Below, in pieces: positions 855-20,039 of a stretch of 23,934 bases of DNA. The first letter of the stretch is position 1. Each line of letters opens with the position of its first letter. Source of the stretch: a virus; IMG/VR virus record IMGVR_UViG_3300001833_000046, positions 1-23,934 of that record, one strand, 5' to 3'. The notes below the pieces were generated by a model that saw only the letters and a program-made list of their open reading frames with translations, searched no databases and was not told where the DNA came from. The position numbers and the translations under genes are program-made.

Positions 855-855
855 G

Positions 856-1347: not shown

Positions 1348-1351
1348 AATT

Positions 1352-4931: not shown

Positions 4932-5082
4932 TTTGTTTTTTATTATGGAAATCAAACAAAATCTTAACCTTTTCAGTTAAGCTTTCTATGCTGTAATGCA
5001 TGCGCGACAGCACAACAACCAATGTAATGAATCCCAAAAACAACGGCCATAATGAAGTTATAACTTCTATCATGCTATTCAT
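4903..5082 (-). CDS. Small single-pass membrane protein, possible lysis accessory
   Basis: This 59-residue protein was read directly from the DNA. One hydrophobic segment at residues 9-26 (including WPLFLGFITLVVV) is followed by a basic and polar tail with a short helical, coiled-coil-like part (SIESLTEKVKIL). Its ATG overlaps the stop of the 131-residue membrane protein as ATGA, and its end overlaps the metallophosphatase start by 29 bases, so it is embedded in the operon. The shape, a single N-terminal membrane helix with a charged coil, is common for small proteins beside phage holins. It might be a spanin-like or antiholin-like factor, but no lipobox or signal is visible. Confidence 0.62.
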   Translation of the reverse strand: MNSMIEVITSLWPLFLGFITLVVVLSRMHYSIESLTEKVKILFDFHNKKQNDTKSKRNN

Positions 5083-5474: not shown

Positions 5475-5635
5475 TTGTCTTTAAGTTGCCTAATAACCTT
5501 AATCGTTGCAAACGTCATATAAATTGTTGTTACGGCCGCAACGCAGATGCTAGCATAAGCATCAACATTAGAAAGTGAAATGCTGGCAAGCGTACCAAAT
5601 GCGCCAACGCAAGATTTTGAAATAACTTCTTCCAT
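5471..5635 (-). CDS. Small membrane protein, candidate holin
   Basis: This 54-residue protein was read directly from the DNA. A hydrophobic segment covers residues about 27-47 (AYASICVAAVTTIYMTFATI), with a weaker one at 8-21, and the C-terminus is basic (RQLKDK). This is the form of small phage holins. The start is firm: the ATG overlaps the preceding stop as TAATG, and a purine-rich GGAGAGGAG lies about ten bases upstream. The end overlaps the next gene as ATGA. With the 131- and 59-residue proteins it makes a run of three membrane proteins. Which one is the true holin cannot be told from sequence. Confidence 0.65.
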   Translation of the reverse strand: MEEVISKSCVGAFGTLASISLSNVDAYASICVAAVTTIYMTFATIKVIRQLKDK

Positions 5636-5880
5636 TATTCTTCATCTCCTCTCCAAAAAACAACGTCCTGCACAACTGCTGCCTGCTCTTCTTCGGTTAA
5701 ATTGTAAGATTTAACGCCAAGCGCCCATTGTGAAGGTTCTGAATCGGTTGGCTCTGTTGGTCTTGGCAAAGATAAATATTTTGAGCCATGCCCATGTTTC
5801 CAAAATGACAAATCCTGCGCCTTGCCTTCGGCCGTTGCCCGGTCAATGGCATCCATTTTTTCTGAATAAATTAAATACAT
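5635..5880 (-). CDS. Small protein between the fibre gene and lysis cassette
   Basis: This 81-residue protein starts at the ATG at 5880, directly after the fibre-gene stop (TAA-A-ATG), with GGGACAT as a weak ribosome site. A longer in-frame start at 5934 would lie inside the fibre gene and is not needed. The protein is polar, with YSEKMDAIDRATAEGK at the start, a central HGHGSKYLSLP segment, and an acidic end. The C-terminal part (SYNLTEEEQAAVV) resembles small phage proteins found next to tail fibres that may help fibre folding, but I do not recognise a family. It shows no muralytic motif. Confidence 0.65.
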   Translation of the reverse strand: MYLIYSEKMDAIDRATAEGKAQDLSFWKHGHGSKYLSLPRPTEPTDSEPSQWALGVKSYNLTEEEQAAVVQDVVFWRGDEE

Positions 5881-5881
5881 T

Positions 5882-7156: not shown

Positions 7157-7458
7157 TAAAACTTTGAATTGAATTCAATGTCTGTAATTGAAATGTTCAG
7201 ATTTGGGCTGGTTGCGCCGGACAATGTAAAGCGCAGGTTTGCTTCTCCAATTCTGACATTTAACGCCCCGGCAGAAGTAAATGAGCCATCAGCTCCATTT
7301 GCATCTTTTAATGTAAACCAAGTGCTGCCGCCATCGTAAGACGCTTGGATGCTTAATGTGCCGCCACCAAATGTGCCGTATGCAGCAACGTTTAAATTGC
7401 CCTTTGATTGCAATGCTGATGTTGAACCATCAGAAGTTAAGTTATAAGTTTGAGCCAT
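7156..7458 (-). CDS. Small beta-rich tail-associated protein
   Basis: This 100-residue protein consists mostly of strands and glycine/serine turns. It contains SYDGGSTWFTLKDANG, a motif like the repeat of BNR/Asp-box or beta-sandwich proteins, and ends in LNISITDIEFNSKF. There is no signal peptide or membrane helix. It lies between two large tail proteins and is coupled to the fibre gene by a TAATG overlap. Its own ATG at 7458 follows an A-rich stretch without a Shine-Dalgarno sequence. Similar small proteins are frequent beside marine phage fibres and may decorate or join them; the exact role is unknown. Confidence 0.65.
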   Translation of the reverse strand: MAQTYNLTSDGSTSALQSKGNLNVAAYGTFGGGTLSIQASYDGGSTWFTLKDANGADGSFTSAGALNVRIGEANLRFTLSGATSPNLNISITDIEFNSKF

Positions 7459-7472
7459 AATTTTTTTTAAGT

Positions 7473-8657
7473 TTAATGCACAATCATTAGGTGATCACCA
7501 TGCCGATAAACATCCCCGGCTGATAAACCTGCTGCGATTGCGTGAGTATTGTTAGAATGTTCCTGTAATCCAGTAAAATTAGGTGCATTGACATTTGCCT
7601 TTAACGCCAATTGGGCATTTACATAAGACAAGCTCGCGCCCTCTGGTAAGCTTGTTGCAGGCAAACTGTTTGGCGCGGCCACCGCAGGCAAAACAGTAAT
7701 TGGCACTTGGCAAATAACATCTGTGTCAATTTTAACTTCAAAAAATGCTTCACCGCCAGATGCAATAAGTTGCTGCACTCTGGCGTTATTAGCACTTAAA
7801 GTTAGGCTAAAGCCATTAGTTATTGTGCTTGTTGTGTCAGTATAGATTGCAGGCTGTTGGCTAATCTCAATGACCTGCTGCGCTCTTACAATTGGAGTTC
7901 CAGTGAATGAGCCAAAAGAAGGAGATCCGCTCCCATCCTCTACTGTCCAGGATGTTACCTGCCAAGGGTAAGTCTTATCTTCTGTTGAGTAGTAATAAGT
8001 ATCAGAGTCCCAGCGGATTCTCCATTGAGTCCCAGTCCATCTGATATCGCCGCTACCTGCCGAAAAAGCCACTTTGCCGCTTACAAGAGACCCGTCTTTT
8101 GTCCAAGTCGCATCTATCTCATCGTTAGAGCCAGTAATGGTGAAGCCAGTAATGTTAGCGTCAATTATTCCCGGCACACTTGTTCCAACTGTAACTTCCG
8201 ATTCTGGCGCAAGATTAATGCTTGTTCCTGTAAGATCTGAGCGCGATCCGGCATCATTAAAAATAATTCTGTAAGACCCGGCCGCCAATTTTGTCACAAT
8301 AACACGCGATCCAAAAGCGCCTGTGTTAGAATTAAGCGCATTTAATGCATCTTCAACGGCCTGCGCTGATGCATCATGCTGCAAAGCCGCTGTGGTATCT
8401 ACGCCGTCAGTTAATGTAAATGTTCCGCTTGTTGCTGCCTTGCCGCGCCCAGAGATTGAAACCGCAACAGCAACTGATCCAGACCCACTCCTGGAATCAT
8501 AAGATCCAGCAGAATTGACCAAGTAAAGATTGGCTGAAACTGTTTCACCTTCAACAATTTGCGGCAATCTGACAATTTGGGTTGGTCTTTTTTCAGACGC
8601 AACGGCATTAGCCGTCAAATCCTTTAAATCTGTGTTAATATAAATTGCAGTTGCCAT
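7473..8657 (-). CDS. Modular tail protein with a tryptophan/tyrosine-rich inserted domain
   Basis: This 394-residue structural protein sits among the tail-tip genes. Residues 1-160 form a beta-rich region with an EALN/ALNSN helix. Residues about 169-253 form a compact domain rich in Trp and Tyr (IRWTGTQWRI, then DTYYYSTEDKTYPW and TSWTVEDG); I have seen this pattern as a repeated module in many phage and algal-virus proteins, possibly sugar-binding. Residues 260-320 form another beta domain. The end (AIAAGLSAGDVYRHGDHLMI) matches a short C-terminal motif common in phage fibres. DNA for the central domain (about 7880-8150) uses different codons from its flanks. The start lacks a Shine-Dalgarno and follows a hairpin. 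Confidence 0.7.
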   Translation of the reverse strand: MATAIYINTDLKDLTANAVASEKRPTQIVRLPQIVEGETVSANLYLVNSAGSYDSRSGSGSVAVAVSISGRGKAATSGTFTLTDGVDTTAALQHDASAQAVEDALNALNSNTGAFGSRVIVTKLAAGSYRIIFNDAGSRSDLTGTSINLAPESEVTVGTSVPGIIDANITGFTITGSNDEIDATWTKDGSLVSGKVAFSAGSGDIRWTGTQWRIRWDSDTYYYSTEDKTYPWQVTSWTVEDGSGSPSFGSFTGTPIVRAQQVIEISQQPAIYTDTTSTITNGFSLTLSANNARVQQLIASGGEAFFEVKIDTDVICQVPITVLPAVAAPNSLPATSLPEGASLSYVNAQLALKANVNAPNFTGLQEHSNNTHAIAAGLSAGDVYRHGDHLMIVH

Positions 8658-8673
8658 TGCTTAATCTTTTAAA

Positions 8674-8692
8674 GCCAAAATGAATTTTTGGC
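8674..8692 (-). terminator. Perfect 7-bp hairpin between two tail genes
   Basis: GCCAAAA-N5-TTTTGGC forms a perfect stem in the 47-bp gap between the 186- and 394-residue genes. On the minus strand it is followed only by TTTAAAAG, so any termination would be weak. It could instead stabilise the upstream mRNA 3' end or block a ribosome site. Confidence 0.35.
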
Positions 8693-8704
8693 AAGTGCAG
8701 ACAA

Positions 8705-9265
8705 TTAGGATAATGACAATGTTATGCTGCCATTTCCGCCAGCTATAAGTGCTGATTCTGACACGTTTGAATAGATATAAACCAACCTTGGCACAACTGA
8801 TTTTGCCAAATTAATGGTTGTGCTGCCGCTAATGCTAGCGCTGCTAACCTTTCCAGCGCCATACGGATCTGAATCTGAGTCACTATCAACAAATCCATTG
8901 GCTGTAATGTAAGCATCCGCAGTTGAAAATGGATAATTTGCGCTGTTTACTTGGCAATTGTAAGACAATGTAAAACTGATCGCGGTTGCGCATTGGCAAT
9001 AAAATGCAATGTAGATTTCCATGACATTGCCGCCCGGCCCGGAGCTTGCATAACTTATATTATGTGAAGGAAAATTGGTTGAATAGTTGTTGGCATTTGA
9101 TGCGTCAGATCCCAAAATATTTAACCAATATTTCCACGGCCAATTTGCGCTTGTTGTGTCTTTTGCGCAATTGACCGGATAAGTGTTTGCGCTGCCTGCT
9201 GTTGCTGGTTCATTTAAAAAGGAATCAGTAGTATTGGCAAACGCACCTGCTCTTAAAATTGCCAT
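8705..9265 (-). CDS. Tail-associated protein, function unknown
   Basis: This 186-residue protein is beta-rich and full of S, T, N and A, with four cysteines (in VNCAKD, YCQCAT and YNCQV), unusual for a phage tail protein made in the cytoplasm. It contains WPWKYWLNILGSD near residues 42-54 and a DSDSDSD run near 126-132 that might bind calcium, though this is only a guess. The start overlaps the previous stop as TAATG. The late tail-tip position suggests a minor structural or receptor-contact protein. I recognise no family. Confidence 0.7.
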   Translation of the reverse strand: MAILRAGAFANTTDSFLNEPATAGSANTYPVNCAKDTTSANWPWKYWLNILGSDASNANNYSTNFPSHNISYASSGPGGNVMEIYIAFYCQCATAISFTLSYNCQVNSANYPFSTADAYITANGFVDSDSDSDPYGAGKVSSASISGSTTINLAKSVVPRLVYIYSNVSESALIAGGNGSITLSLS

Positions 9266-9534
9266 TATGGAAGCTTTGTTAAGAAGATCCTTTGCCCGGC
9301 CGTGTTATCGCTTTGCACAATATCCAAAGTTTCTTCACTAAAGTCAATGGTTGCGCCGTTTCTGGGAATTCTTAACGCAACATTGTTATCCGAATATTCA
9401 ACCTGTGGCTCTGCATCAGAATCAATCGTTTCAAATTTCATGTTCAAAAGTGAATTGGTTTTCCCAATCACTTCATTCATTTTTTTGTTCCTGGCTAGCG
9501 CGCCGCCTGTTGTTACCTTTTCAATGTTTGCCAT
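9265..9534 (-). CDS. Small tail-region protein, function unknown
   Basis: This 89-residue protein has a helical N-terminal half (ALARNKKMNEVIGKTNSLLNM) and a strand-rich C-terminal half (NNVALRIP, GATIDFS). The start and stop both overlap their neighbours as TAATG, so it is translated in step with the tail genes. It might be a linker or an assembly factor; I do not recognise it. Confidence 0.7.
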   Translation of the reverse strand: MANIEKVTTGGALARNKKMNEVIGKTNSLLNMKFETIDSDAEPQVEYSDNNVALRIPRNGATIDFSEETLDIVQSDNTAGQRIFLTKLP

Positions 9535-10796
9535 TACAATGCCCGGATTCCCTTGGTAATAACTTCATAAATGTTGCCCTTCCAGCGCCTAATGTCGCTT
9601 GAAAGTGTTAACAAATCGCCATCTTCAATAAATTGCCTGTATTCATCTGCCGTTGGCTCTGTGCTAGATGTCAAAAAAGTAACCTGTGCGCCTGTTGAAT
9701 AATTAGTTCCTTCAAACTTTTGCGCCAATGGAATGTCTTGAATGTTTGAAATGCCAGTTGTTACGCCGGGCAAAAAATAACTGTGCCTTGTTTCAGTTGT
9801 TCCAATTTGGGAAATTTGGCTGCGTCCCCTTTTTGCGCCCGGATAAACTTTGCCGCTGGCGGCTATGTAACTAAAATTTGCTGGGAATTTTGCTTTTACT
9901 CTTAATGTGCTGCCAGTAGTTCCGGTCAATGCTTCTGCATAAAAAATCCTATATTCGCTATAGGTTCCGCCGCCAGAAGTAGCAATTGAGATTCTCATTA
10001 ATATTTTAACAGAATCACCAACTGAAATGCCGTGCGCGCTGCTAGTTACAATTGACAATTCAGTTGGAGTAGCTTGCGAAACGCTATTGATAACAAATGA
10101 AGATCCGGTTCCGGCAACTGATTGCAGCCCTGGAAAAGTAAATATTTCTGAACCGGATGGCTCTGATCTGTCCTTTGGAATGTTGGCAAATTGCCTGTCA
10201 AATGTTAACAACTCGCCGCTTTCGTCAACTGTATGGTTGAAATCGCCAACAAAATAAGCGTTAAAATCGGTAAAGTTTTCTGGCAAGGTTGGATAAATTC
10301 TGGCATTTGAATCAATCAATACATCATTAAGATCCGGTATCTTTTTTGATGTTACAAATGTCAATGTCCCAGATCCGGTTGCTGTAATCCAAGATGTTTC
10401 TTCAAACGGGAATCTTGTAATTACGCTACCCCCCTGCAAAACAAATGGATCAAATGTGCTTTGGTTATAAAAATACCAACCAGCTCCGGCATACCTTGCA
10501 AATTCATAATTGTTGCCAGAATCTCTATAAATTGGCGCATTATCGCTAAATGAAACGCCATCCCATTGCATTGAAACGTTTCCAATTGGTGTACCGCCGC
10601 TGTCACTAATTCCAGAAACTGTAAACCTATAAATGTTTTTTGGATGATAAGCTTGTTTGCGCATGCTGCAAGCAATGTGATAAACCTTAGTTTCCATATC
10701 GCCCTGCTCAATAAACGGATATTCAATATAGGTGTCCCCGGTTGCAATGGGAAAGCCGAACAACTCTAAACTGCTGCTGTAATAAGGAATGCTCAT
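9534..10796 (-). CDS. Tail-tip protein following the tape measure
   Basis: This 420-residue protein is beta-rich throughout and has no membrane helices. It is placed directly after the tape measure, where distal-tail and baseplate proteins normally lie. Visible parts include an aromatic-rich N-terminal domain (YHPKNIYRFTVSG, WDGVSF), an AHGISVGDSVKI segment near residue 254 like those found in beta modules of tail proteins, and a helical/beta C-terminus (ADEYRQFIEDGDLLTL, WKGNIYEVI). Its first residues, MSIPYYSSSLEL, resemble the start of the putative tail tube. The start is separated from the tape-measure stop by two bases. I cannot match it to a named lambda tip protein; a distal-tail role is inferred from place. 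Confidence 0.65.
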   Translation of the reverse strand: MSIPYYSSSLELFGFPIATGDTYIEYPFIEQGDMETKVYHIACSMRKQAYHPKNIYRFTVSGISDSGGTPIGNVSMQWDGVSFSDNAPIYRDSGNNYEFARYAGAGWYFYNQSTFDPFVLQGGSVITRFPFEETSWITATGSGTLTFVTSKKIPDLNDVLIDSNARIYPTLPENFTDFNAYFVGDFNHTVDESGELLTFDRQFANIPKDRSEPSGSEIFTFPGLQSVAGTGSSFVINSVSQATPTELSIVTSSAHGISVGDSVKILMRISIATSGGGTYSEYRIFYAEALTGTTGSTLRVKAKFPANFSYIAASGKVYPGAKRGRSQISQIGTTETRHSYFLPGVTTGISNIQDIPLAQKFEGTNYSTGAQVTFLTSSTEPTADEYRQFIEDGDLLTLSSDIRRWKGNIYEVITKGIRAL

Positions 10797-10798
10797 AA

Positions 10799-12574
10799 TT
10801 ATGGATTTTCGGAAATAACTTTTTCAATGTTTGTTAATGCGTCTGCGCTTGTCTTTACATTTGCGGCCATGTCAGTTGCTGTTTTGTCTTGCGCAGGTTT
10901 TGCGGTTTCCCCGGATGGTTGTTTGCGCTCTGCACCTACGCCAAACCCGGCTGCCCTTTCGCGCTCTTCCATGCGCTTGTTGCGCTCTTCCTGCCTGCGC
11001 CTTTCTTCTGCTTGAACCTCTGCCGCCCTTTCAGCCCTTTCCCTTGCTCTTCTGGCCTTATCTTCCTGCCTCTTTTTTCTATCGAATGCACGTTGTTCTC
11101 TTGGTGTAACATAACCGCTCTGGTTCACATCTGCCGGGTCTGATTCATCACCTGCTGCACCTGTTGTTGGCTTTATGCCAGATTCTTTTTCTTTAGCAGC
11201 AATCAATTCATTTGCTAATCTGGCAGCGGTTTCCCGGTCTGAATTTGTTTCACGCATTATGCGCTGTGTTTCACGCTCTAAATCTAATTGTTTTTGCGCC
11301 TGCTCAATTGCGCTTTCATTGCCATCAATCTGCGCATTAATTAAATCTAGCCTTAATTGCTCCAACGCAACCTGCTCTTCCGTTTTGGGTTTTGATGCGT
11401 TTTGAGTAGCAATAAAATTGCGCGATTCCTCTAAAATTTTTTGATAAGCTTTTAACCTTTCTTCCAATGCTTTTTTGCGCTCTGGATCTTTTTCTTCTTC
11501 GGCTTGTTTGCTTAATTCTTCGGCTAAATCTTCGGAATTTTTAATTGCGTCCTCTTTTAACCTATTTTCTTCTTCCAGTTTGGCAATGGCGGCCGATCTG
11601 GCTGCTTGGTAAGCATCGCGCGATTCTTTAAGCGCTGCAATCTCATTCCTAATCAACTCTTCCCTTTCAGCGCCGTAAATCCTGGACATTCTATGTCCCT
11701 TTGCTTCCAAGCTTTGCACGGCCTCAAATTCTTCCGCGCTAAATCCACGCATAAAGAAAACTTCACCCAAGCGCTGCCCAAAACCCTTAATCACGCCAAT
11801 GCCACTATTAACTGTTTTAAGGAATTCCGTAAAAGCAGGAATTAGTTCCTGCCCAACGCTTGTTGCCGTTTCCGTAAGTTCAACTTTAAGGAATTTTATT
11901 CTGTTAGCTGCGCTGTCTGCTGTAATTGCAGCATCTCCATTTGCTTCCCCCATGTCCCGGATAAGGATCGACTGCACGGCCAACGCCTTTTGCGCTGCCG
12001 TCATTGTGCCAACGCCGTCAAAAATCGCCAAATTTAAGCCTTCTTGCTTTAATCTGGCTTCATTAATAACAATGCCCAGTTGTTTTAATGGTTCAAATTC
12101 TCCGGAAATCGCGGATCTTAATTTTTGAAACATGTCCTCAATTCTGAGATCATGAAAACTTGCCAAATCGCCACCAATTTTAACCAACTGAATAGAAAGC
12201 AACCGGGCTGCCTCTTCATTAAACCCAAACGCTTTTGCCATCGCGCCAAATGTGGCCAACGCATTTTGCATTTCCTGTTCTGTTGCCGGGATAATTTTGG
12301 TAAGTTTTTCAACTTCTTTTGTCATTTCGGCAGTTGCCGGGCCAAATACTGCGCGAAACTTTGACGCGGTTTCTTCGGCAGATGCGCCCAATTCAACCAT
12401 GTTTTTTATTGCGCCAACGCCAATAATTCCTGCGAACATGCCCGGCAGTCCGGATAAGCTTTTCCGAACGCTTGAACCAAATGAAGCAACTGACATCTTG
12501 GCGCGCTGAATGCCGCGCTTAAACCCGGTTGAATCTAAATTGAGTTTGGTTCTAAGTTCAGCTTTCTGCGCCAT
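10799..12574 (-). CDS. Tape measure protein
   Basis: This 591-residue protein fixes tail length and passes through the tail tube at DNA ejection. Visible features are a basic N-terminus, a hydrophobic glycine-rich stretch (about 42-60), and a region typical of small tape measures (residues 60-250, with FGPATAEM, AFGFNEEAARLL and LGIVINEARLKQEGLN). Long coiled coils follow (about 300-470), then an extremely arginine/glutamate-rich helix (about 500-555). At the usual 0.15 nm per residue it would measure a tail of about 90 nm, which is known physics applied to this length. The start overlaps the upstream gene by 17 bases and has AGGAA as a ribosome site. Identity is strong. Confidence 0.85.
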   Translation of the reverse strand: MAQKAELRTKLNLDSTGFKRGIQRAKMSVASFGSSVRKSLSGLPGMFAGIIGVGAIKNMVELGASAEETASKFRAVFGPATAEMTKEVEKLTKIIPATEQEMQNALATFGAMAKAFGFNEEAARLLSIQLVKIGGDLASFHDLRIEDMFQKLRSAISGEFEPLKQLGIVINEARLKQEGLNLAIFDGVGTMTAAQKALAVQSILIRDMGEANGDAAITADSAANRIKFLKVELTETATSVGQELIPAFTEFLKTVNSGIGVIKGFGQRLGEVFFMRGFSAEEFEAVQSLEAKGHRMSRIYGAEREELIRNEIAALKESRDAYQAARSAAIAKLEEENRLKEDAIKNSEDLAEELSKQAEEEKDPERKKALEERLKAYQKILEESRNFIATQNASKPKTEEQVALEQLRLDLINAQIDGNESAIEQAQKQLDLERETQRIMRETNSDRETAARLANELIAAKEKESGIKPTTGAAGDESDPADVNQSGYVTPREQRAFDRKKRQEDKARRARERAERAAEVQAEERRRQEERNKRMEERERAAGFGVGAERKQPSGETAKPAQDKTATDMAANVKTSADALTNIEKVISENP

Positions 12575-13184
12575 TGTTTAATTCCTGTAAGATTTCCTGC
12601 TTAATAAGTTTAATCAATTTTGGCTCTGCCAACTTGTAATCCGGAATGGTTGCCAAGCGCATTGCTTTTTGTAACTGAAAGATTCTGTTTAATGGCCATG
12701 TTAAAACATCTGCCGGGTTTTGTCCATAACGCGCTGCAACTTCATCAATCGCACCAACAATTCCAGCAATTGGCGACATTTTATTGTCCCGGCTAAATCC
12801 GGATTTGGTGTTTATTGTTTCTGGCATTTCCGAAAATGCGTTGTTCACATGATCAAAAACCAGTTTTGCCAATGCCTCTTTATTGCTTTTGCCGTAAGCA
12901 TAGCCAATGCGTCTTTTGGCTTTTTCTGATGCCGCGCATTGCTTTGGGTTATATTCTGAGCAGTTGCGCCAAATGTAATCAATCAAATCCTGTTCAGATG
13001 GATCTGCTCCCAACGCAATGGCATTATCAATTAAGTTTAAATCCACCCATGCTTTGGCTGTAAGCGGCTTTAAAGCGATTTTGTCTTGCTTGGTAATACC
13101 AGAGTCAGATGACCAGGCCAAAAGCCTGTTTTGGGCAATTCTGGCTGTTGCTTCCTTTAGATCTTCTGACAATTTGTTGATCAT
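12558..13184 (-). CDS. Putative tail assembly protein in the lambda gpG position
   Basis: This is a 208-residue protein, mainly helical, between tail tube and tape measure, where lambda-like phages encode tail assembly chaperones. I choose the ATG at 13184; an in-frame TTG at 13232 would translate through a terminator hairpin. The ATG touches the T8 run of that terminator and has no Shine-Dalgarno sequence. Seen features are an N-terminal helix (INKLSEDLKEATARIAQ), a central basic region (EKAKRRIGYAYG), and a C-terminal domain with EVAARYGQNPADVLTWPLN, common in phage tail proteins. It ends 17 bases inside the tape-measure gene, so there is no room for a lambda-type G/GT frameshift product. 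Function is by position. Confidence 0.6.
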   Translation of the reverse strand: MINKLSEDLKEATARIAQNRLLAWSSDSGITKQDKIALKPLTAKAWVDLNLIDNAIALGADPSEQDLIDYIWRNCSEYNPKQCAASEKAKRRIGYAYGKSNKEALAKLVFDHVNNAFSEMPETINTKSGFSRDNKMSPIAGIVGAIDEVAARYGQNPADVLTWPLNRIFQLQKAMRLATIPDYKLAEPKLIKLIKQEILQELNNGAES

Positions 13185-13220
13185 AAAAAAAAGCCCTGCC
13201 CACCTTTGGGCAGACAGGGC
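13185..13220 (-). terminator. Intrinsic terminator after the tail-tube/52-aa pair
   Basis: On the minus strand GCCC, a four-base bulge and TGCCCA pair with TGGGCA and GGGC across an AAGG loop, followed directly by eight T residues. This is a strong rho-independent terminator. It lies 22 bases past the stop of the 52-residue gene and ends at the ATG of the gpG-like gene. It probably lets the tail tube be made in excess over the chaperone and tape measure, with those reached by read-through. Confidence 0.8.
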
Positions 13221-13241
13221 AATTTTAAGCAATTTGCTGAT

Positions 13242-13400
13242 TTAATCCTTAGCTTTTTGCTTTTTGGTTTTTGGGGTTAATTCTTCTGCATCGCCATTAT
13301 CAATTAAGGATTGCGCAACCAAATCGCCAACTTCAACAATTGACCCGGCTTCTTCAATGCAGCCCTTAATTGATTTTTCTTTTACCAGTTTAATTTTCAT
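13242..13400 (-). CDS. Small basic protein coupled to the tail tube gene
   Basis: This 52-residue protein was read directly from the DNA. Its ATG overlaps the tail-tube stop as TAATG. It contains two short strands (MKIKLVKEKSI, SIVEVGDLV), a helix and a lysine-rich end (PKTKKQKAKD). The pattern, a small beta domain with VGDLV and NGDAEEL, resembles short phage proteins that follow connector or tail-tube genes, and it recalls the 74-residue protein after the capsid. Small basic partners of tail tubes are known in other phages, but the function here is unknown. A strong terminator follows. Confidence 0.65.
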   Translation of the reverse strand: MKIKLVKEKSIKGCIEEAGSIVEVGDLVAQSLIDNGDAEELTPKTKKQKAKD

Positions 13401-13774
13401 TAACCTTGGTAAGTTTTGCGCACGGCAACCATTTCAAATGTGTCAAATGCGTCTTTGTCTCGATTAACAGTAACGTCTTTAACAACCAACGTTGAACCTG
13501 TGCCAGATCGGTCATAATCGTGCGTAAACTCATCACCAATTGCAGGCAATTCGTGGGTAGTGTGTGAGCGCTGCAATGTATAAGTAACTTCAATTTGATC
13601 AGACCCGGCGCGCAACATAAAGTCGCCACGATCGCCATTGGCATCTGTTCGGCTGATAATACGATTTGCGAAAGATGCACCGGAAACGGCATCAACGATA
13701 TAAGCAACAGAATTGATTGTTACTGATTCTAAACCTTGTGGAAGGTCTGATGAGGATGAATAAGGAATTGACAT
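13400..13774 (-). CDS. Putative major tail tube protein (lambda gpV position)
   Basis: This 124-residue protein is beta-rich, with charged loops (SRTDANGDRGDFML, TVNRDKDAFDTFEM) and a central QIEVTYTLQRSHTTH strand pair. Tube proteins polymerise as hexameric rings around the tape measure. Support is positional: it follows the gpU-like gene and precedes the gpG-like and tape-measure genes, and is followed by a strong terminator, as expected for an abundant protein. It is short for a tube protein (lambda gpV has 246 residues), so alternatives exist. The ATG has no Shine-Dalgarno sequence; TATACT lies four bases upstream. The N-terminus MSIPYSSSSDL resembles that of the 420-residue tip protein. 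Confidence 0.55.
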   Translation of the reverse strand: MSIPYSSSSDLPQGLESVTINSVAYIVDAVSGASFANRIISRTDANGDRGDFMLRAGSDQIEVTYTLQRSHTTHELPAIGDEFTHDYDRSGTGSTLVVKDVTVNRDKDAFDTFEMVAVRKTYQG

Positions 13775-13778
13775 AATA

Positions 13779-13807
13779 AGTATAAGTTAAATGTGATAAT
13801 CTCTTTA
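13779..13807 (-). promoter_or_regulatory. Possible promoter next to the tail tube start
   Basis: A good -10 hexamer (TATACT, 13784-13779) lies four bases before the ATG in a 38-bp AT-rich gap. The -35 at 17-bp spacing (TAAAGA) is poor. If real, the transcript would begin at or inside the start codon. Weak candidate. Confidence 0.2.
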
Positions 13808-13812
13808 GATAT

Positions 13813-14367
13813 TTAAACGCTTGGCCACGCAGTTGACAATATTGAAATTTGGCCGGAATAAGACAGAGTTGAAACGTCAAAAACATCTTCAACGCTATTA
13901 TCCGTCCCGGCAGGCCTTAAAAATTCTATTTCATAATGCTGCAAATAAGATTCCAGGGCTGAACCCTTGGCCTTTAGCAGGCTAACCCAAGTCCGGAGCA
14001 ATGCTATCATTTCATGATGCCGTGATTCAACATTTGCAGTTTGGCTGCCCTCTTCATTGTGCCGCCGGGTTTGAACAATAAATTCCAAGTCAAATTCATA
14101 TTGATCATAAACCGGGTTGGCCGCGCCGCCCGGCGCTGGATTGTAATGCCCGGTAACTGCGCCCAGCTTAAAAGATGCGCCAATGTAATCATCTGGCAAT
14201 GTTTCAACATCTTGCTGCTTTTTTACTTCCAGCATTTGATCCGCCAACCAGTCCCGGAAAGCAGAATCAACATTGCCTTCAAAATTAAATAATTCTGTAT
14301 AAGAAGCGGCTGGCATTTGCTTAAAATAGGTTGCAGATTCAATTTTGTCAATCAGCGCACATTCCAC
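13813..14367 (-). CDS. Putative tail terminator/connector protein (lambda gpU position)
   Basis: This 184-residue protein probably caps the tail during assembly. It begins with a helix (ALIDKIESATYF) and a strand-rich core typical of tail terminators, including YDQYEFDLEFIVQTRRH (about residues 87-103), a long helix (ESRHHEMIALLRTWVSLL) and a C-terminal beta portion. The predicted start is GTG at 14367, overlapping the preceding gene by 16 bases, with no clear Shine-Dalgarno; the first good internal ATG (residue 18) would remove the first helix. Order (FII, Z, U, V) supports the assignment. Sequence motifs alone do not. Confidence 0.5.
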   Translation of the reverse strand: MECALIDKIESATYFKQMPAASYTELFNFEGNVDSAFRDWLADQMLEVKKQQDVETLPDDYIGASFKLGAVTGHYNPAPGGAANPVYDQYEFDLEFIVQTRRHNEEGSQTANVESRHHEMIALLRTWVSLLKAKGSALESYLQHYEIEFLRPAGTDNSVEDVFDVSTLSYSGQISILSTAWPSV

Positions 14368-15137
14368 CCGGATTGCTTGGCCGTTTCCTTAAATAAGAAT
14401 TTTAAGCGCCTTTCCATAGCCTTTAACCTGCCGCGCTTAATTATGCTTAATGTTTTTGCCTGCACATATTGCAACCCAAATGCCTTGGCATCGGAAATTG
14501 CCGTCCAAGCATTGCCAATTTTTGTTATCCTGGCTGTGCCATTGGCTTTGGGCATTTGTTTTTGTATCCATGCAGGAATTTTTATTTTTTTGTTTAATCT
14601 GAATATTCCCTTGGCAATTGATGCCTTTGCAATGCCAACGTCTTTTTGCTGAATCAATAAATATTTTTCAAACATGGATTCAGTAACCCACATTTGCTGA
14701 AAGCCTTTTAGCGGCCTTGTCCTGCCGGATCTTGGGTTTCTGTTGGCATTGTGGAAGCGGCGCATTTCGTCCATAGATTTAATAACTCCTGCGCCAATAA
14801 TTCTTTTGCCTCTATAAATATTCCCGGAGGAAAATGTTTTAGCAGCCCAATTGTAAATGTCGCGCCTTGGAATAAAGAATATTTTATTTAAATCATATTC
14901 AATCGCCAGCTGCCCGGCTTTTTCGTCTTTTTTTGCCCCCAAGCTTCTGCCGCGCCCACTGGGAAATTCTTTATACGGCGGCACAAATCGCCCAATGTCT
15001 GCCAAAAACAATCCGCCTTGCTCTTTTACAAATTGCTTTTCGTCAATGTTCCACTTTTTTGCCAGCTTTCTGATTTTATGCTGAAACAATGCATCATCAA
15101 ATTCAACTGTTTTTCTAGCCATAAAGCTTGGATTCAT
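14352..15137 (-). CDS. Minor tail/tail completion protein (lambda gpZ position)
   Basis: This 261-residue protein is strongly basic, consistent with neck proteins of the gpZ or HK97-gp10 kind that join tail and head. It has a helical N-terminus (FDDALFQHKIRKLAKKWN), the patch FVPPYKEFPSGRGRSLGAKK, and a long lysine/arginine-rich stretch. The ATG at 15137 has GAAGG about seven bases upstream and overlaps the FII-like gene by 23 bases; ATG at 15122 (MARKT) is possible but has no ribosome site. The identity is by position and charge. Confidence 0.5.
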   Translation of the reverse strand: MNPSFMARKTVEFDDALFQHKIRKLAKKWNIDEKQFVKEQGGLFLADIGRFVPPYKEFPSGRGRSLGAKKDEKAGQLAIEYDLNKIFFIPRRDIYNWAAKTFSSGNIYRGKRIIGAGVIKSMDEMRRFHNANRNPRSGRTRPLKGFQQMWVTESMFEKYLLIQQKDVGIAKASIAKGIFRLNKKIKIPAWIQKQMPKANGTARITKIGNAWTAISDAKAFGLQYVQAKTLSIIKRGRLKAMERRLKFLFKETAKQSGWNVR

Positions 15138-15435
15138 TGCGCGCCTTCAATTCCACATTTCCGGTGCTAATGCTAACCTCTGTCACGAAATAAGTTTCAC
15201 CTGTGTTGGATCTTATAAACCGATCCTTCTTTTTTGGAATTGATGTTAAATCAAACAACGCAATGACAAGTTTGGTTTCCGGATTCGCAAGATCTCCATG
15301 CTCTACCATGTCCCAATCATTAATCTCTTCATCAAAAATTGCATTTACAAGTTGGCCGTTAATTTCGACAGATTCGCCCATAATAAATGCTGCGTCCCGG
15401 CATGATATATTTAAAAAATCTTCAAAATCGCTCAT
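15115..15435 (-). CDS. Head-tail joining protein, lambda gpFII-like
   Basis: This 106-residue protein probably forms the head-closure ring. It starts with DFEDFLNISCRDAAFIMGE, then ING-x5-IFDEE, a central strand LVIALFDLTSIPKKKDRFIRS and an end with TYFVTEVSIS-x-GNVELKARN. This arrangement (short helix, three-strand barrel, a K/D turn before the strand pair) matches the phage head-tail joining family often listed as ATP-binding sugar transporter-like. The place after the capsid gene and before the gpZ-like gene supports it. It begins downstream of a strong terminator; a promoter candidate lies between. Confidence 0.55.
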   Translation of the reverse strand: MSDFEDFLNISCRDAAFIMGESVEINGQLVNAIFDEEINDWDMVEHGDLANPETKLVIALFDLTSIPKKKDRFIRSNTGETYFVTEVSISTGNVELKARNESKLYG

Positions 15436-15441
15436 GCCCTA

Positions 15442-15470
15442 ATTCTTAAGCTTAAAACGCAAAATGACAA
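15442..15470 (-). promoter_or_regulatory. Possible promoter between terminator and FII-like gene
   Basis: TTGTCA (15470-15465) and AAGAAT (15447-15442) are separated by exactly 17 bases on the minus strand, directly after a terminator. Transcription would begin about at the ATG at 15435. The -10 is only a partial match. Confidence 0.28.
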
Positions 15471-15475
15471 GGTGC

Positions 15476-15508
15476 AAAAAAAACCGCCACCTGCATAACA
15501 GATGGCGG
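15476..15508 (-). terminator. Intrinsic terminator after the 74-aa gene
   Basis: On the minus strand CCGCCATCTG and CAGGTGGCGG form a ten-pair stem (one T-G pair) with a five-base loop, followed directly by eight T residues. It is a textbook rho-independent terminator and ends the capsid-74-aa unit. Confidence 0.85.
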
Positions 15509-15533
15509 CAACCCAACACACATACCCTAGCTA

Positions 15534-15758
15534 CTAAATTTTCTTTTTAACAGATTTGCGCACAACTTTAGGTTTTTCAACCTTTATGCCATCAATTTTT
15601 TTAAATTTGTCGATTTGTCCTTTTCTAAGGAAAACAACTTCACCGGGTTCAATGCAGTTTTTGTAAGCTTCCAGACAAATGCTGGCATCCTCAGAAGATT
15701 CAATAACAGACAATTTGCCGCTTGGTGATTTATGAAATGTGGCAGAAGGTTTTAACAT
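15534..15758 (-). CDS. Small basic protein after the capsid gene (lambda FI position)
   Basis: This 74-residue protein has an N-terminal polar strand region (ATFHKSPSGKLSVIESSEDAS), a helical patch (CLEAYKNCIEPGEVVFLRKG) and a strongly lysine-rich C-terminus. It lies between the capsid hairpin and a strong terminator, so it may be made in large amounts. Possible roles are capsid decoration or an FI-like packaging accessory; no family is recognised. Its ATG at 15758 has no Shine-Dalgarno and is preceded by repeated ATT. Confidence 0.62.
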   Translation of the reverse strand: MLKPSATFHKSPSGKLSVIESSEDASICLEAYKNCIEPGEVVFLRKGQIDKFKKIDGIKVEKPKVVRKSVKKKI

Positions 15759-15781
15759 AATAATAATGGTTTAAAGGATAA

Positions 15782-15808
15782 GGAGGCCTTGGTGTCGCCA
15801 AGGCCTCC
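15782..15808 (-). terminator. Strong 11-bp hairpin directly after the capsid gene
   Basis: GGAGGCCTTGG and CCAAGGCCTCC form a perfect 11-bp stem with a five-base loop, seven bases beyond the capsid stop. The following minus-strand bases (TTATCCTTT) are U-rich but not a run, so it may be a partial terminator or a block against 3' mRNA decay. Confidence 0.6.
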
Positions 15809-15815
15809 AATGGAA

Positions 15816-16700
15816 TTACGCAGATTTTACTCTTACGCCGTAGTCAACGCCAGCTGCAACGCCATAAAGAAGGTTGCAGTTATAGTAGAGTATGCCGTCA
15901 TTGTCATAAAAGCGGCGGAATTGAACCGGAAGGCCAAGCCCCGGAATAACAACATTTTCAACTTCAATGCCTGCTTGTTCAGCCAATTCTGTGTCAACAG
16001 AGCGGCCAGCCATAAGCAGCGCATTGCGTTGGAACGCGAAAGCGGCAAGGTTTTCGCCATTGGCATCAGCCAAGTCAGTTTCATAAACATCCAACTTAGC
16101 AACGCGCGGCACAATGCCCTCTTCCTTCTGCTCAGTAATTCCTGGGAATTCTGCGCTGTTCATGGATTTAACCAGGGAAGCATAATAAGTTGGGTTCATG
16201 AAAATTGAACGGCCAGCCTGTGGAGCTTTCTTGGTTTCCGTAAGTGTTGCGCTGAGATCCGCAAGATCGTCCCGGTCAAAGTTGGCGGCAGTAATTGTTT
16301 CAACTGTGCCAAATGTGCCGGATGTGATCAGATTCCAAACATCACCAAAAACCTTATCGCCAAGCGCCTGCAATGCAGGTTCAATGAAAAGGTTGTTCAG
16401 ATTGATGGAGGATTTGGAACGCTCAACATCGGTAAATCCATAAGTAAAGCCATAATGCTGATTAAGAGTAACAGTAGCGGCAGTCATTGCTACATCAGCA
16501 GATGCAGATTTGATCCCGGCGCTCATGTCAGCAGCGGTTGGCTTGGTTGGATAACGAGTTGTGACGCTTTCGCCAGCGCCTTGAACGTCAGCGGAAAAGT
16601 CAGTTGTTAGTGCGCTCAATGGAGCGAAAAGAGAGCTTAGACCAGCCAAGCTTTCCTGTGCGATTTCGGCAAGATTTGCCCCTGCTATTGTATTAGCCAT
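15816..16700 (-). CDS. Major capsid protein
   Basis: This 294-residue protein forms the icosahedral shell. Sequence features: an alanine-rich N-terminus (ANLAEIAQESLAGLSSLF), a segment with GESVTTRYPTKP and MTAATVTLNQHYGFTYGFTDVE (split here), matching the beta-extended part of P22/HK97-fold coat proteins. An A-domain-like C-terminus contains YASLVKSMNSAEF and YYNCNLLYGVAAGVDYGV. No cleaved N-terminal delta domain is evident, so scaffolding is probably supplied by the protease fusion. It follows protease and portal genes as expected. The leader has no Shine-Dalgarno but is A-rich with a repeated AAACTA. A strong hairpin follows the stop. Identity is good. Confidence 0.8.
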   Translation of the reverse strand: MANTIAGANLAEIAQESLAGLSSLFAPLSALTTDFSADVQGAGESVTTRYPTKPTAADMSAGIKSASADVAMTAATVTLNQHYGFTYGFTDVERSKSSINLNNLFIEPALQALGDKVFGDVWNLITSGTFGTVETITAANFDRDDLADLSATLTETKKAPQAGRSIFMNPTYYASLVKSMNSAEFPGITEQKEEGIVPRVAKLDVYETDLADANGENLAAFAFQRNALLMAGRSVDTELAEQAGIEVENVVIPGLGLPVQFRRFYDNDGILYYNCNLLYGVAAGVDYGVRVKSA

Positions 16701-16749
16701 AATATTTTTGGTTTTAGTTTTAGTTTACAAGTTCCACTTGGTGGTGAAA

Positions 16750-17778
16750 TTATTTTTTTAAAAGGTGTTTGTTATCTTTAAACCATTTGTTCTTGGCCTC
16801 CGCACCATGTGATTTTCCAATGGCTCTATATTCAGCCCAGAAAGATTCAGCATCCATTGGCTTGTCAGTTTCATTGGATGCTTCGGCAATTGCCTCTTCT
16901 GTTTGAATGGCCATTAATTCTGCGGCGGCAGATGCTACTGCATTTGCGGTAACTTTCTTGGCTTCGGTCAACTCTTCTGAATGCTTGTTTTGCATGTCTT
17001 GCAGAGTATCTTTAAACTCATTTAAAGAATTTTGCAATTCTTCAATTTGAACCGCGCTGTCATTAACAGTTGCATTGGCTTCAAGCAAATCTTCTTCAAG
17101 TTTTGCAACCTGCGTTTCATGCTGTGCAATCAAATTGCTGACAATCTTTTCCACCGGAAGTGTTGCTTCTGCCTGCTTGGCAATCATTGACAATTCTGAA
17201 ATGGATGCAGCGGCCTGCAATCCTTCGGTTGTTCCGTCAATAAACCCGGCTTCCAATGCCTCTGATGCTGTGAACCATGTTGTTGCATTCATCAATTCTT
17301 CCAACTCTTCTTCTGTATAAGATGAACGGCTGTAAGCATTAATAATGGCTGATTTCATTTTATCCATAAGGTCAGCATCTTTGCGCAGTTGTTCACTATC
17401 GCCAATTGATACAGTCCAAGGATTGTGAATCATAAGCAAAGCATTGTCTGCCATAATAACTTCATCTCCGGCCATTGCAATTACAGAAGCCATAGATGCA
17501 GCCATGCCGTCAATGTAAACAGTTACATTGGCTGAATGCCGTTTGATGGCGTTAAAAATAACATTGCCTTCAATAATTGAACCTCCTGGGCTGCTTATGC
17601 GCAGATCTATTTGTTCAACTTCTCCAAGGTTTTCCAATTCTTCCAAAAATTGCCCGGCGTTGACTCCAAAGCCGCCAATTTCGTCATATATAAAGATTTC
17701 TGCCTTAGTAGATTTATTTCCTTCGGCATCAATTTTTTGTTCCATCGCATACCATGTGTTGCTTTCAGTTTTTTGCAT
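16750..17778 (-). CDS. Prohead protease (ClpP/S14-like) with C-terminal scaffold-like domain
   Basis: This 342-residue protein processes and organises the procapsid. The start at 17778 has AGGAAAA ahead and is one base after the portal stop; a longer frame from 17829 would overlap portal. Residues about 25-190 are a ClpP-like fold: ISSPGG (61-66), GMAAS with likely nucleophile Ser95, and MIHNP with His118. The usual acid position of the E-T-W motif holds Thr166. From about 200 onward the protein is a long coiled coil (QIEELQNSLNEFKDTLQDMQ), ending in a basic stretch KNKWFKDNKHLLKK. This looks like the lambda gpC/Nu3 arrangement; Met198 could give an internal scaffold but no ribosome site is seen. 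Confidence 0.8.
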   Translation of the reverse strand: MQKTESNTWYAMEQKIDAEGNKSTKAEIFIYDEIGGFGVNAGQFLEELENLGEVEQIDLRISSPGGSIIEGNVIFNAIKRHSANVTVYIDGMAASMASVIAMAGDEVIMADNALLMIHNPWTVSIGDSEQLRKDADLMDKMKSAIINAYSRSSYTEEELEELMNATTWFTASEALEAGFIDGTTEGLQAAASISELSMIAKQAEATLPVEKIVSNLIAQHETQVAKLEEDLLEANATVNDSAVQIEELQNSLNEFKDTLQDMQNKHSEELTEAKKVTANAVASAAAELMAIQTEEAIAEASNETDKPMDAESFWAEYRAIGKSHGAEAKNKWFKDNKHLLKK

Positions 17779-17779
17779 T

Positions 17780-19570
17780 TTAATTTTCCTCAATTTCGGT
17801 TTTCTCGGATTCCGTTTCTGCAATCTCAATTTCAGATTGTGATTCAGAACCAGATTTTAAAGTTATTGGCCTTCTGTAACCGCCGTCCTCAGACCATGCG
17901 CCCAAAACTTGTTCAGACATTTCCGGCAATCCTGCTTCTGCCCGGAATGCAGCTTCATCGCTTTGCTGTGGCGTTACTGATCCAGCGCGAACGGCAACGC
18001 CGTAAGAATCAAACTTGGCTTTCAATGTGGCAAAATCCAGATCAGATTTCATTGCAAGATCTTGCGTTTCATCGCCATCCACTTCTTCCCCGGTTTCTTC
18101 AACAACTAATTCTGTTGCATCTCCGGGCATTGCGGTTGTGCCAAGTTCTGTTGGATTCAATCCGTTTTCTTCGGCAATTTGTTTTTTCAAGACAATATTG
18201 GCAGCACGTTTACGCAGCAATTCTTCATAATCCATGCCGCGCGCTTCAACAATGTGATCTTCTGTTGTTAGTCCTGCGCGCAAATCTGCAATGTCTGCCG
18301 CGCGCATTCTGCCTTCATCTACTGTGAATTGTGCTGGTTTGGTAAACCCAATCTTCCACCAATCTTCCGGCAGATCATAAGCGCCTTGTTTGGCGCGCTT
18401 GGCGATAACATATAAAGCGGCGCGCTTCATGGCTGCTTCAATAATTTCACATCGCGTTGAAATGGATTTATTGATGTCAGCCGCAAAACCTCTAACGCCT
18501 GCGCCACCAACTGCGCTAGAATCTAGCATTTCCCTGCGCCATCCAAGTGCATAAAACGCAGAAGATTCAACCAGTTTGGTAAAGTTAAGCCATTGGTCTG
18601 ACGGCCTGTTGCTTTGGTGCGCCTGTAAAGATCCGCCATTTTTAATGTACCGGATAAGGCCGCTGTCCATTAATTGTGTTTGCAAGCGGCCATCGCCACC
18701 GGGCTGTGGATTGACAATGCTGTTGCCCATGTCAGCGCGCCCGGTTTCATTTGATTCAACCAGCGTTAATGCGCTGTTCACCTTTTCAGCGATCTTTTCT
18801 GCATCCCTGGTTTCTGCCAAATCATACCAATCCAAAATGGCGGCGGCAACTGATGGCTGCCCCCGGCTTTGGCTAAACCATTCCAGATCCGCAACATGAA
18901 TCATGCTGCTGGCATTTACGTCCCTGTAACCATCCTTTGCTGATTCATCCTGCACCCGGTAAGCAATTGGCTGCATTAATTCATCAACAATAACGCCAGC
19001 AAAAATGCGCAGGCCTTTATAACGCCCGGTTGTTACTGTATGCTGCCCATGCAGACCAAATGAACCAACCCGGTGCGCCTCTAAAAATTGAAGCTTGGGA
19101 AATCCTGTGCCTGCGTTTTCTGTTAGTAAAATAAAATAATCTCCGTCAACATCTAATGTTTTAGATCCCAGCCATGAAGATTTTTTGAATGAAAAATTTG
19201 TTCCCCTGGTATCAAGCAGCCTGTCAATTTGCGCAAAATCTTTTTCAAGCGCCATCGCAAATTCTGTATCAGCGCTGTAAGATTGCAGCCGCCATGCATT
19301 GCCATAAACATAATTGGCTTTCTGCTTAACCGCGCCGGACACAGTTGAAAAGGATTGGTAAATGTAACGGCTATCGCCAAGCAACATCTTTTGGCGGTTT
19401 TCAACCATTAGTTCCGCAATATCACGCGCCAACTTGCCCCGGCCAAACCTGCGTTGGTCATCTGCGCCGCCCGGATAAAATTCATTAGTTCCGCCCCTGC
19501 CCCAAAATGAAGCAACGCCAGATTTTATCTTTTTAATTTTTGGGATAAGCTTTATCGGTTTGGTTGCCAT
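17780..19570 (-). CDS. Portal protein (lambda family)
   Basis: This 596-residue protein forms the dodecameric DNA channel at one capsid vertex and docks the terminase. It is the usual lambda-family length (lambda gpB 533). Features include the N-terminal basic region, a core with AKQ/VYGNAWRLQSY-type strands, LDVDGDYFILLTENAG (near residues 139-154), a DWYDLAETRDAEKIAEKV stem helix, and a conserved WRREMLDSSAVGG segment. The C-terminal 110 residues are acidic and glutamine-poor, ending IEEN; such tails vary. It has a strong ribosome site (AGGAGGAA) and lies between gpW-like and protease genes as in lambda. Confidence is high. Confidence 0.85.
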   Translation of the reverse strand: MATKPIKLIPKIKKIKSGVASFWGRGGTNEFYPGGADDQRRFGRGKLARDIAELMVENRQKMLLGDSRYIYQSFSTVSGAVKQKANYVYGNAWRLQSYSADTEFAMALEKDFAQIDRLLDTRGTNFSFKKSSWLGSKTLDVDGDYFILLTENAGTGFPKLQFLEAHRVGSFGLHGQHTVTTGRYKGLRIFAGVIVDELMQPIAYRVQDESAKDGYRDVNASSMIHVADLEWFSQSRGQPSVAAAILDWYDLAETRDAEKIAEKVNSALTLVESNETGRADMGNSIVNPQPGGDGRLQTQLMDSGLIRYIKNGGSLQAHQSNRPSDQWLNFTKLVESSAFYALGWRREMLDSSAVGGAGVRGFAADINKSISTRCEIIEAAMKRAALYVIAKRAKQGAYDLPEDWWKIGFTKPAQFTVDEGRMRAADIADLRAGLTTEDHIVEARGMDYEELLRKRAANIVLKKQIAEENGLNPTELGTTAMPGDATELVVEETGEEVDGDETQDLAMKSDLDFATLKAKFDSYGVAVRAGSVTPQQSDEAAFRAEAGLPEMSEQVLGAWSEDGGYRRPITLKSGSESQSEIEIAETESEKTEIEEN

Positions 19571-19923
19571 TAATATCTTCCTCCTGCTTGGTCAGCAAAT
19601 CGCGCCTTGGTGACATTGGTAACTTCATTGTCAGCATCAATGACGTAAGAAGCCATTTCAGCATCTGTCATTTGGCCGCCGGATGCGCCACCTGTTGTTA
19701 CTACCTTGTATAACATGCGCAGTTGTTCAATAAAATCAGTTGCAGACCATTCTGGCGGTAATTCATATTGAAACTGCTTTCCTGCCACGTTGGCAGACAC
19801 AATCCTTGCGCCTCCTCTGGATTGGGTTTCAAATTCACCCAATGCCAAGGTTTCAATTATAGCCAAAGCGGCCACAGCATCTTTTGCTGCTTTTATCCAG
19901 ATCACGAACAGAAGGCTTCTCAT
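19570..19923 (-). CDS. gpW-like head-tail joining protein
   Basis: This 117-residue protein lies between terminase and portal, exactly the lambda W position. The first part is a helix (IKAAKDAVAALAIIETLALG), then a beta hairpin (GARIVSANVAGKQFQYEL) and a second helix (ATDFIEQLRMLYKVV), the gpW helix-hairpin-helix order. A polar C-terminal tail follows. In lambda gpW plugs the portal after DNA packaging. The hydrophobic opening (MRSLLFVIW) is odd; a GTG at residue 7 is possible but has no ribosome site. A promoter candidate with a perfect -35 lies immediately ahead, which would give a nearly leaderless message. Confidence 0.6.
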   Translation of the reverse strand: MRSLLFVIWIKAAKDAVAALAIIETLALGEFETQSRGGARIVSANVAGKQFQYELPPEWSATDFIEQLRMLYKVVTTGGASGGQMTDAEMASYVIDADNEVTNVTKARFADQAGGRY

Positions 19924-19931
19924 GTGCCTTT

Positions 19932-19960
19932 GTTATGAGCAAAAAACGGCGAATTGTCAA
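19932..19960 (-). promoter_or_regulatory. Likely promoter of the head gene operon
   Basis: On the minus strand TTGACA (19960-19955), a perfect -35, is separated by 17 bases from CATAAC (19937-19932, four of six matches). The gene starts at 19923, so transcription would begin only a few bases before its ATG. It is the best sigma-70-type promoter in the window and would start the gpW-portal-capsid unit. Confidence 0.45.
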
Positions 19961-19970
19961 CTTGCGGTAT

Positions 19971-20039
19971 TTGGGCATAAAAAGCCGTTAAATTTATTCC
20001 GCTATTTTTGGGCATAAAAAAGCCGTTAAAATTATTCCG
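19971..20039. repeat. Tandem duplication of the terL 3' end
   Basis: Two copies of about 31-32 bp (19971-20001 and 20008-20039), sharing all but two positions (one extra A and one A/T change). Copy two contains the end of the large terminase gene with its stop codon; copy one lies in the gap after it. Offset is 37 bp. The copies carry AT-rich stretches and GCCGTTAAA. Confidence 0.75.

Follow-up and report, generated by a model that had tools for sequence, protein, structure and literature searches.

Conserved terminator-like hairpins at three late-gene borders of a P8625-related virus and their possible role in expression ratios

We analyzed the late genes of the virus record IMGVR_UViG_3300001833_000046, the whole of which (23,934 bases, possibly a genome fragment) is referred to here as the window. 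All late genes examined are located on the minus strand, in the transcriptional order portal, protease, major capsid protein, g74, g106, g261, g184, probable tail tube protein, g52, g207 and tape measure protein (Table 1), where the name portal was taken over from phage P8625 by comparison of gene order. Three gaps in this block contain a hairpin: T1 between the capsid gene and g74, T2 between g74 and g106, and T3 between g52 and g207. An earlier note, made from the sequence of the window, had described hairpins at these positions, right after the capsid gene, the gene for a 74-amino acid protein and the pair of genes for the tube and a 52-amino acid protein, and all three were recovered there on the coding strand.

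Table 1. Hairpins, promoter-like sites and genes in the late region of the window, listed in the direction of transcription.
Feature	Positions	Strand	Description
Major capsid protein	15816..16700	-	phrog_283, E 4.8e-24
T1	15782..15808	-	hairpin behind the capsid gene; GGAGGCCTTGG-CGACA-CCAAGGCCTCC, tail TTATCCTTTA
g74	15534..15758	-	74-amino acid protein between T1 and T2, function unassigned
T2	15475..15509	-	hairpin and T-run behind g74; stem 15509-15483
P106	15442..15470	-	promoter-like, TTGTCA-17-AAGAAT; -10 ends 6 nt ahead of ATG 15435
g106	15115..15435	-	head-tail attachment/head closure-like; PF05354, 25.9 bits; phrog_82, phrog_153
g261	14352..15137	-	no assigned function; synteny
P184	14323..14351	-	promoter-like, TTGACA-17-TATTTT; -10 ends 6 nt ahead of ATG 14316
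g184	13813..14316	-	start from ATG-CCA common to relatives
Ptube	13811..13839	-	promoter-like, TTGTCA-17-TTAAAT; -10 ends 36 nt ahead of tube ATG
Probable tail tube protein	13400..13774	-	position ahead of tape measure and weak fold matches
g52	13242..13400	-	phrog_2616, function unassigned
T3	13185..13220	-	hairpin and T8 behind tube/g52; stem 13220-13193
g207	12558..13184	-	gene behind T3
Tape measure protein	10799..12574	-	phrog_1535, E 5e-17

The RNA folding energies of T1, T2 and T3 (-21.6, -20.2 and -21.2 kcal/mol) are the lowest among the eight coding-strand hairpins at or below -11 kcal/mol, and the three have the highest G-C pair counts among the 31 terminator-like sites at positions 1-20000. 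The total of 31 is at chance level (24.9 in shuffled sequences, standard deviation 5.7), and the significance therefore lies in the three hairpins themselves rather than in the number of sites. All three are stable and rich in G+C, as expected of intrinsic terminators. By a score of the d'Aubenton-Carafa type (T-score threshold 2.9), only two coding-strand sites in the whole window passed, T3 with the top score of 54.9 and T2 with 47.6, and their T-scores (5.43 and 5.18, respectively) indicate a U-tract in both; no site on the opposite strand of the window was above the threshold. The T8 run of T3 directly adjoins the ATG of g207. T1 has a stem as strong as those of T2 and T3 followed by a weak U-tract, and in the window it may be a weak terminator or a stabilizer of the mRNA end only. 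A scan of the window against Rfam gave no match.

We compared these gaps to those of related loci. The best 80 of 113 relatives from a capsid search of IMG/VR were used, and a search with the tube protein gave 16 loci, of which two were the same as capsid-derived loci and six more were located on contigs from the capsid search. The sole match in a phage collection was P8625 (two records, one phage), with a capsid protein 66% identical to that of the window; the main text of its publication describes it as a lytic siphophage of a marine strain of Verrucomicrobia subdivision 4 (PMC4642752). P8625 (NC_029047) has the same three borders, with gaps of 59, 60 and 74 nt and a hairpin of different sequence in each; its T2 and T3 are located at 9579-9614 and 11869-11904. 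Locus L001 was left out everywhere, the duplicates L082-L085, L089 and L095 from all counts, and the P8625 copy L096 from the set of distinct T2 hairpins and from the conservation, spacing, terminator-score, turnover, promoter-bin, pair-type and strand-stability counts. Also left out were loci cut too close to the stop or start codon and BLAST matches that begin late in the query, with limits at residue 8 for the shuffle test of promoters, 12 for the start alignment and 25 for the promoter bins. Loci were thinned at 85% identity for the conservation and promoter counts, while identical stems were merged for the terminator scores, pair types and strand-stability comparison, and capsid genes more than 97% alike for the count of T1/T2 turnover.

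Within 118 nt past the stop codon, a strong hairpin was identified behind the capsid gene in 33 of 41 loci, behind g74 in 37 of 37 and behind g52 in 16 of 19, as compared to 17 of 211 cases for eight other genes (portal 1/36, protease 4/35, g106 2/22, g261 1/25, g184 0/27, tube 7/22, g207 0/23 and tape measure 2/21) and 130 of 2497 random windows. Hairpins followed by a U-tract were found in 20/41, 32/37 and 15/19 loci at sites 1, 2 and 3, as compared to 5/211 for the other genes and 17/2497 for the random windows. Four of these five exceptions come from a more distant clade (L063, L066, L069, L071), where a terminator-like hairpin precedes the capsid gene by one gene, and the fifth is T3 itself, immediately behind the tube gene in L094, a locus without an identified g52. 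Hairpins on the antisense strand were rarer (19/41, 9/37 and 3/19 for sites 1, 2 and 3), with a clear difference for T2 and T3 only. It could be argued that the hairpins serve chiefly to shield the 3' ends of mRNAs or as marks for processing, and cause little termination. This would fit T1 best, which in both the window and the P8625 group combines a very stable stem with a poor U-tract (T-scores 2.2-2.5), but a pure stabilizer needs no U-tract, and U-tracts have been kept at all three sites in the proportions given above, which makes this explanation quite unlikely.

The hairpins that could be aligned (all 20 distinct ones at site 3, 26 of 36 at site 2 and 23 of 38 at site 1) have compensating changes at 3 of 12 base pairs in T3 and at 4 of 8 in T2. 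When the stems were lined up from the loop, several pair types were found at most positions, site 1 included, and 26 of the 38 distinct hairpins at site 1 passed both the score and the T-score. The stems are more stable on the sense than on the antisense strand (36/38, 33/33 and 17/17), an observation to which we give no weight, since the sense strand is where the hairpins had been picked. These results show that the hairpins are real and conserved, and their features suggest that they are probably functional. The terms terminator, promoter, hairpin and stem-loop are all absent from the main text of the P8625 paper (PMC4642752), and no published mention of the hairpins was found for the P8625 group in a literature search that covered few subscription journals.

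The distance from the stem to the next ATG is short at sites 1 and 3, 13-26 nt in 68 of 68 and 6-16 nt in 32 of 32 unthinned loci, respectively. No promoter fits behind T1 or T3 in such a space, and g74 and the region from g207 to the tape measure gene would therefore need read-through or antitermination. Site 2 is of two kinds, with 8-17 nt in 22 loci and 41-59 nt in 41 loci (unthinned). In many of the latter, the gap contains a sigma-70-like site: TTGCCA-17-TAAAAC and near variants in the closer relatives of the window, TTGACA/TTGACT-16-TATCAT/TATGAT in L016, L017, L019, L029 and L030 (the last by eye), and P106 in the window itself.

Promoter-like sites were scored with a sigma-70-like matrix of the E. 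coli type in the 320 nt upstream of each gene and with a cut-off of 8.0. In the thinned loci, such sites accumulate in a single 10-nt bin ahead of g106 (13/28), g184 (17/22, the window included) and the tube gene (13/25). No bin contains more than two loci for capsid, g74, g261, g52, g207 or the tape measure gene, the maximum for capsid being a single locus of 43, and the protease gene reached 3/34. In comparison to shuffled sequences, sites with a p-value of 0.05 or less were obtained for g106 in 8/19, g184 in 7/10 and tube in 11/24 loci; the values for the other genes were 3/38 for capsid, 0/30 for g74, 1/22 for g261, 0/13 for g52, 1/17 for g207, 0/17 for the tape measure and 2/14 for the protease. 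The shuffle test used annotated or BLAST-derived starts that are too far upstream for g106 in the P8625 group and for g184 in the window, while the spacing and bin counts used the conserved ATGs. P184, with a score of 9.8, is the only one of the three sites in the window above the cut-off, and P106 and P184 are located in non-coding gaps, apart from their ends. Sites scoring 9 or higher numbered 3 on the coding versus 7 on the other strand in the window, and 6 versus 3 in P8625. In the closer relatives, as in the window, the -10 element ends 5-6 nt ahead of the ATG of g106, and the mRNA would therefore be leaderless. Judged from these three conserved positions between T2 and T3, the connector genes would not have to rely on read-through alone.

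Two further explanations bear on these results. According to the first, termination would be complete early in infection or on stray transcripts, and late polymerases would pass all three sites with the help of a phage factor, with no setting of ratios late in infection. Such processive antitermination would fit T3, the highest-scoring terminator in the window with no conserved promoter-like site behind it, but it would leave the restart promoters between T2 and T3 superfluous, and we consider it unlikely; none of the 52 annotated P8625 features is named as an antiterminator, which is a weak argument in that most are hypothetical and no dedicated search was made. Antitermination is not needed for the stretch from T2 to T3 and may operate at T3. 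The second explanation is plain insulation without any role in dosage, where T2 and P106 separate two units, T3 ends a third, and the tape-measure region is driven by promoters invisible to a sigma-70 matrix. The order of terminator and then promoter at T2 in many relatives agrees with it, and our scan covered a single promoter type, but the space between T3 and the ATG could not accommodate a normal-sized promoter, and no site is conserved in the 320 nt ahead of g207 or the tape measure gene, so that insulation alone appears very unlikely.

T1 and T2 may replace one another. Among 40 thinned loci whose sequence covers both sites, canonical terminators were found at both in 18, at T1 only in 6, at T2 only in 12 and at neither in 4, so that at least one is present between capsid and g106 in 36 of 40. 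Nine of the 12 loci with T2 only have no hairpin at site 1 and three, among them the window, have a weak one; in eight of the nine, the capsid gene and g74 are separated by only 1-6 nt. In all nine unthinned loci with abutting genes and enough sequence (L016, L017, L019, L029, L030, L034, L035, L090, L094), T2 has been kept; L018 and L038 also have abutting genes, but their sequence is cut and they are not part of this count.

Taken together, it is likely that the hairpins are intrinsic terminators that divide the late block into units, and that the tape-measure region depends on read-through. T1, with its weak U-tract in the window, and T2 would end the transcript that arrives through the portal, protease and capsid genes. 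Directly behind T2, P106 would restart transcription, probably of a leaderless mRNA, and P184 and Ptube would do likewise for the connector and tube genes, until T3 ends the transcript of tube and g52. The gene g74 and the region from g207 to the tape measure gene would be transcribed only by polymerases that read through, and the outcome would be abundant mRNA for capsid and tube and little for the tape measure. Tailed phages produce hundreds of capsid and tube subunits and few connectors from neighboring genes, and in the siphophage virion the tube subunits are many and the copies of the tape measure few, a difference in dosage that may be the reason for the retention of the hairpins. The hairpins alone cannot set the level of capsid over portal and protease, because the 320 nt ahead of the capsid gene contain no conserved promoter-like site. 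More tentatively, as a proposal that we rate somewhat short of probable, the P8625-related family may have a conserved, modular control of stoichiometry by terminators and promoters, with two interchangeable sites behind the capsid gene, of which either may provide the active terminator, a leaderless restart, and T3, the strongest terminator in the window, placed ahead of a tape-measure region without promoter, so that read-through at T3 would set the ratio of tube to tape measure.

Several observations weigh against this interpretation. T1 scored only 6.4 in the window, with a T-score of 2.53, and is below the threshold in the P8625 group as well; no common structure emerged from the alignment for site 1, where the stems can also form on the antisense strand in nearly half of the loci. 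Sigma-70-like sites in the window do not exceed the number in shuffled sequences (33 versus 40.4). P106 scored 7.7 (p 0.03 against shuffles) and Ptube about 8.0 after rounding (p 0.05), the latter marginally and both below the cut-off, and the -35 element of Ptube is located in codons of g184. In 22 of 63 measured loci, the gap at site 2 is too short to hold a promoter, and even in the longer gap no promoter-like site was found in L090, only a weak one in L025 (p 0.24), and TTGCCA with a poor -10 element in the P8625 group. Antisense to the capsid start, 19 of 43 loci share TTGCCC-CATAAT-like letters, which we rejected as a promoter since the letters are those of the start codon and the coding sequence, and an accumulation of 7/22 was obtained near g184; positional accumulation is by itself no proof of a promoter. 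In four of the 40 loci (L025, L037, L040, L042), the stretch from capsid to g106 lacks a canonical terminator; the first three of them have inverted repeats with longer loops, seen by eye and outside the reach of the scan. The ninth locus with T2 only and no hairpin at site 1, L054, has a gap of 40 nt without a passing T1 hairpin. L009, L050/L051 and L090 yielded no T3, and that of L093 is non-canonical; the site could be judged only where g52 was found, which leaves aside L046, L049 and L052, among others. Finally, the related loci are not independent.

The earlier note had suggested that the terminators act as dosage controls or that an antiterminator acts on the phage, that the same hairpins should be sought in related phages of divergent sequence, and that only weak promoter candidates separate them from the genes downstream. 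The hairpins do recur, in P8625 as well as in most relatives with a visible site. For dosage control, the fixed hairpins behind high-copy genes, the U-tracts, the compensated stems of T2 and T3 and the lack of room for promoters at T1 and T3 speak in favor, whereas the promoter-like sites ahead of g106, g184 and tube speak against the part concerning connectors, and an excess of capsid over portal and protease could not come from the hairpins alone. The description of the promoter candidates as weak holds for the window read alone, but such sites have fixed positions in many relatives. Our interpretation is in line with the note as regards T1 and T3 and departs from it at T2, behind which many relatives have a promoter-like site.

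The assignment of the neighboring genes is of varying strength. The PF05354 score of g106 is slightly below the family cut-off of 26, and for g74 the family search gave no match and the predicted structure has a pLDDT of 76.5. The model of the tube candidate is of low confidence (pLDDT 70.3) and has no PDB match at an E-value of 0.001 or better; its weak matches are tube-fold proteins of baseplates, necks and tubes, such as the phage Mu baseplate 9ki1 (1.8e-3), the monocin tube 8qhs and SPP1 Dit (0.061 each), and a search of its family profile against solved structures gave no match. The product is a probable tail tube protein, and another tube-fold protein would also be compatible with the model. 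Judged from the starts of its relatives, g184 probably begins at ATG 14316 rather than GTG 14367. The gene g207 probably begins at ATG 13184 rather than TTG 13232, with an ATG 6-16 nt past the T3 stem in all 32 measured loci. Similarly, in P8625 (L097, 9620-9656) the annotated start of gp13, TTG 9620, coincides with a -35-like TTGCCA, and the true start is probably the conserved ATG at about 9656.

Additional elements were observed in the relatives. A palindrome TATCCA-N-TGGATA separates a -35-like TTGACA from the start ATG of g184 in P8625 (L096, 10751), L086 (5438) and L025 (3954); it is operator-like and occurs in the P8625 and L025 groups. Just past the stop codon of the protease gene and upstream of the capsid gene, at about 16731-16749 in the window, there is an inverted repeat TTTCAC..GTGAA that is found in many relatives and is imperfect in the window. 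In the distant clade (L063, L065, L070, L074, L080), a canonical terminator is located one ORF upstream of the capsid gene, and the capsid unit is thus bounded on both sides; behind the capsid gene, L063 and L074 have a sub-threshold hairpin only. L009, L046, L049 and L050, in which no T3 was recorded, have a strong hairpin without a U-tract 37-39 nt past the tube stop codon. The distance from g74 to g106 is about 900-1400 nt in L031, L033, L035, L036 and L041, as compared to the usual 100 nt or so, with the extra sequence behind T2. Another canonical terminator is present in P8625 between gp30 and gp31 (L097, 22357-22389). A contig of a Verrucomicrobiales metagenome-assembled genome (L114, 6247-6280) has a T2-like stem with a tail, GGCGGCTTTTTCG, identical to that of several phages, and no relative of the phage proteins was found in the stretch examined. 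The idea that T2 was copied from a host terminator was rejected, as the T2-type stem pattern occurs in 14 contigs of bacterial genomes from unrelated phyla, L114 being one of them, which points to chance. A narrow T3 pattern was found in three viral contigs, all of them known already.

The results indicate that diverged phages of a host group that has received little study may have kept a punctuation of transcription at matching gene borders. P8625 and Puniceicoccales sp. IMCC8625, a sequenced isolate and its cultured host, make the scheme accessible to experiments.

A terminator behind the capsid gene is of a kind already known. Here, T1 is located directly behind the capsid gene and T3 directly behind the probable tube gene and g52, and capsid and tube proteins are high-copy components of the virion. 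The genes behind T1 and T3 have no promoter of their own, as judged from the distances and a scan for the sigma-70 type only, whereas a promoter-like site follows T2 in many relatives and is weak in the window. In phage T7, Tphi is likewise situated directly behind the major capsid gene, and genes 11 and 12 are expressed solely by read-through (PMC5592923). T7 differs in having a single terminator, which serves its own RNA polymerase, whereas there are up to three in the present family, one of them behind the probable tube gene; relatives have sigma-70-like sites in between, and no conserved promoter-like site was found just ahead of the capsid gene. In LUZ100, a T7-like phage of Pseudomonas, ONT-cappable-seq data show an apparent strong terminator immediately past the capsid gene, with the difference that a local phage-type promoter drives the capsid gene; no tube terminator is mentioned in the text examined (PMC10134795). 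P8625 has diverged in its capsid sequence and shares with the window both the gene order and one hairpin in each of the three matching gaps.

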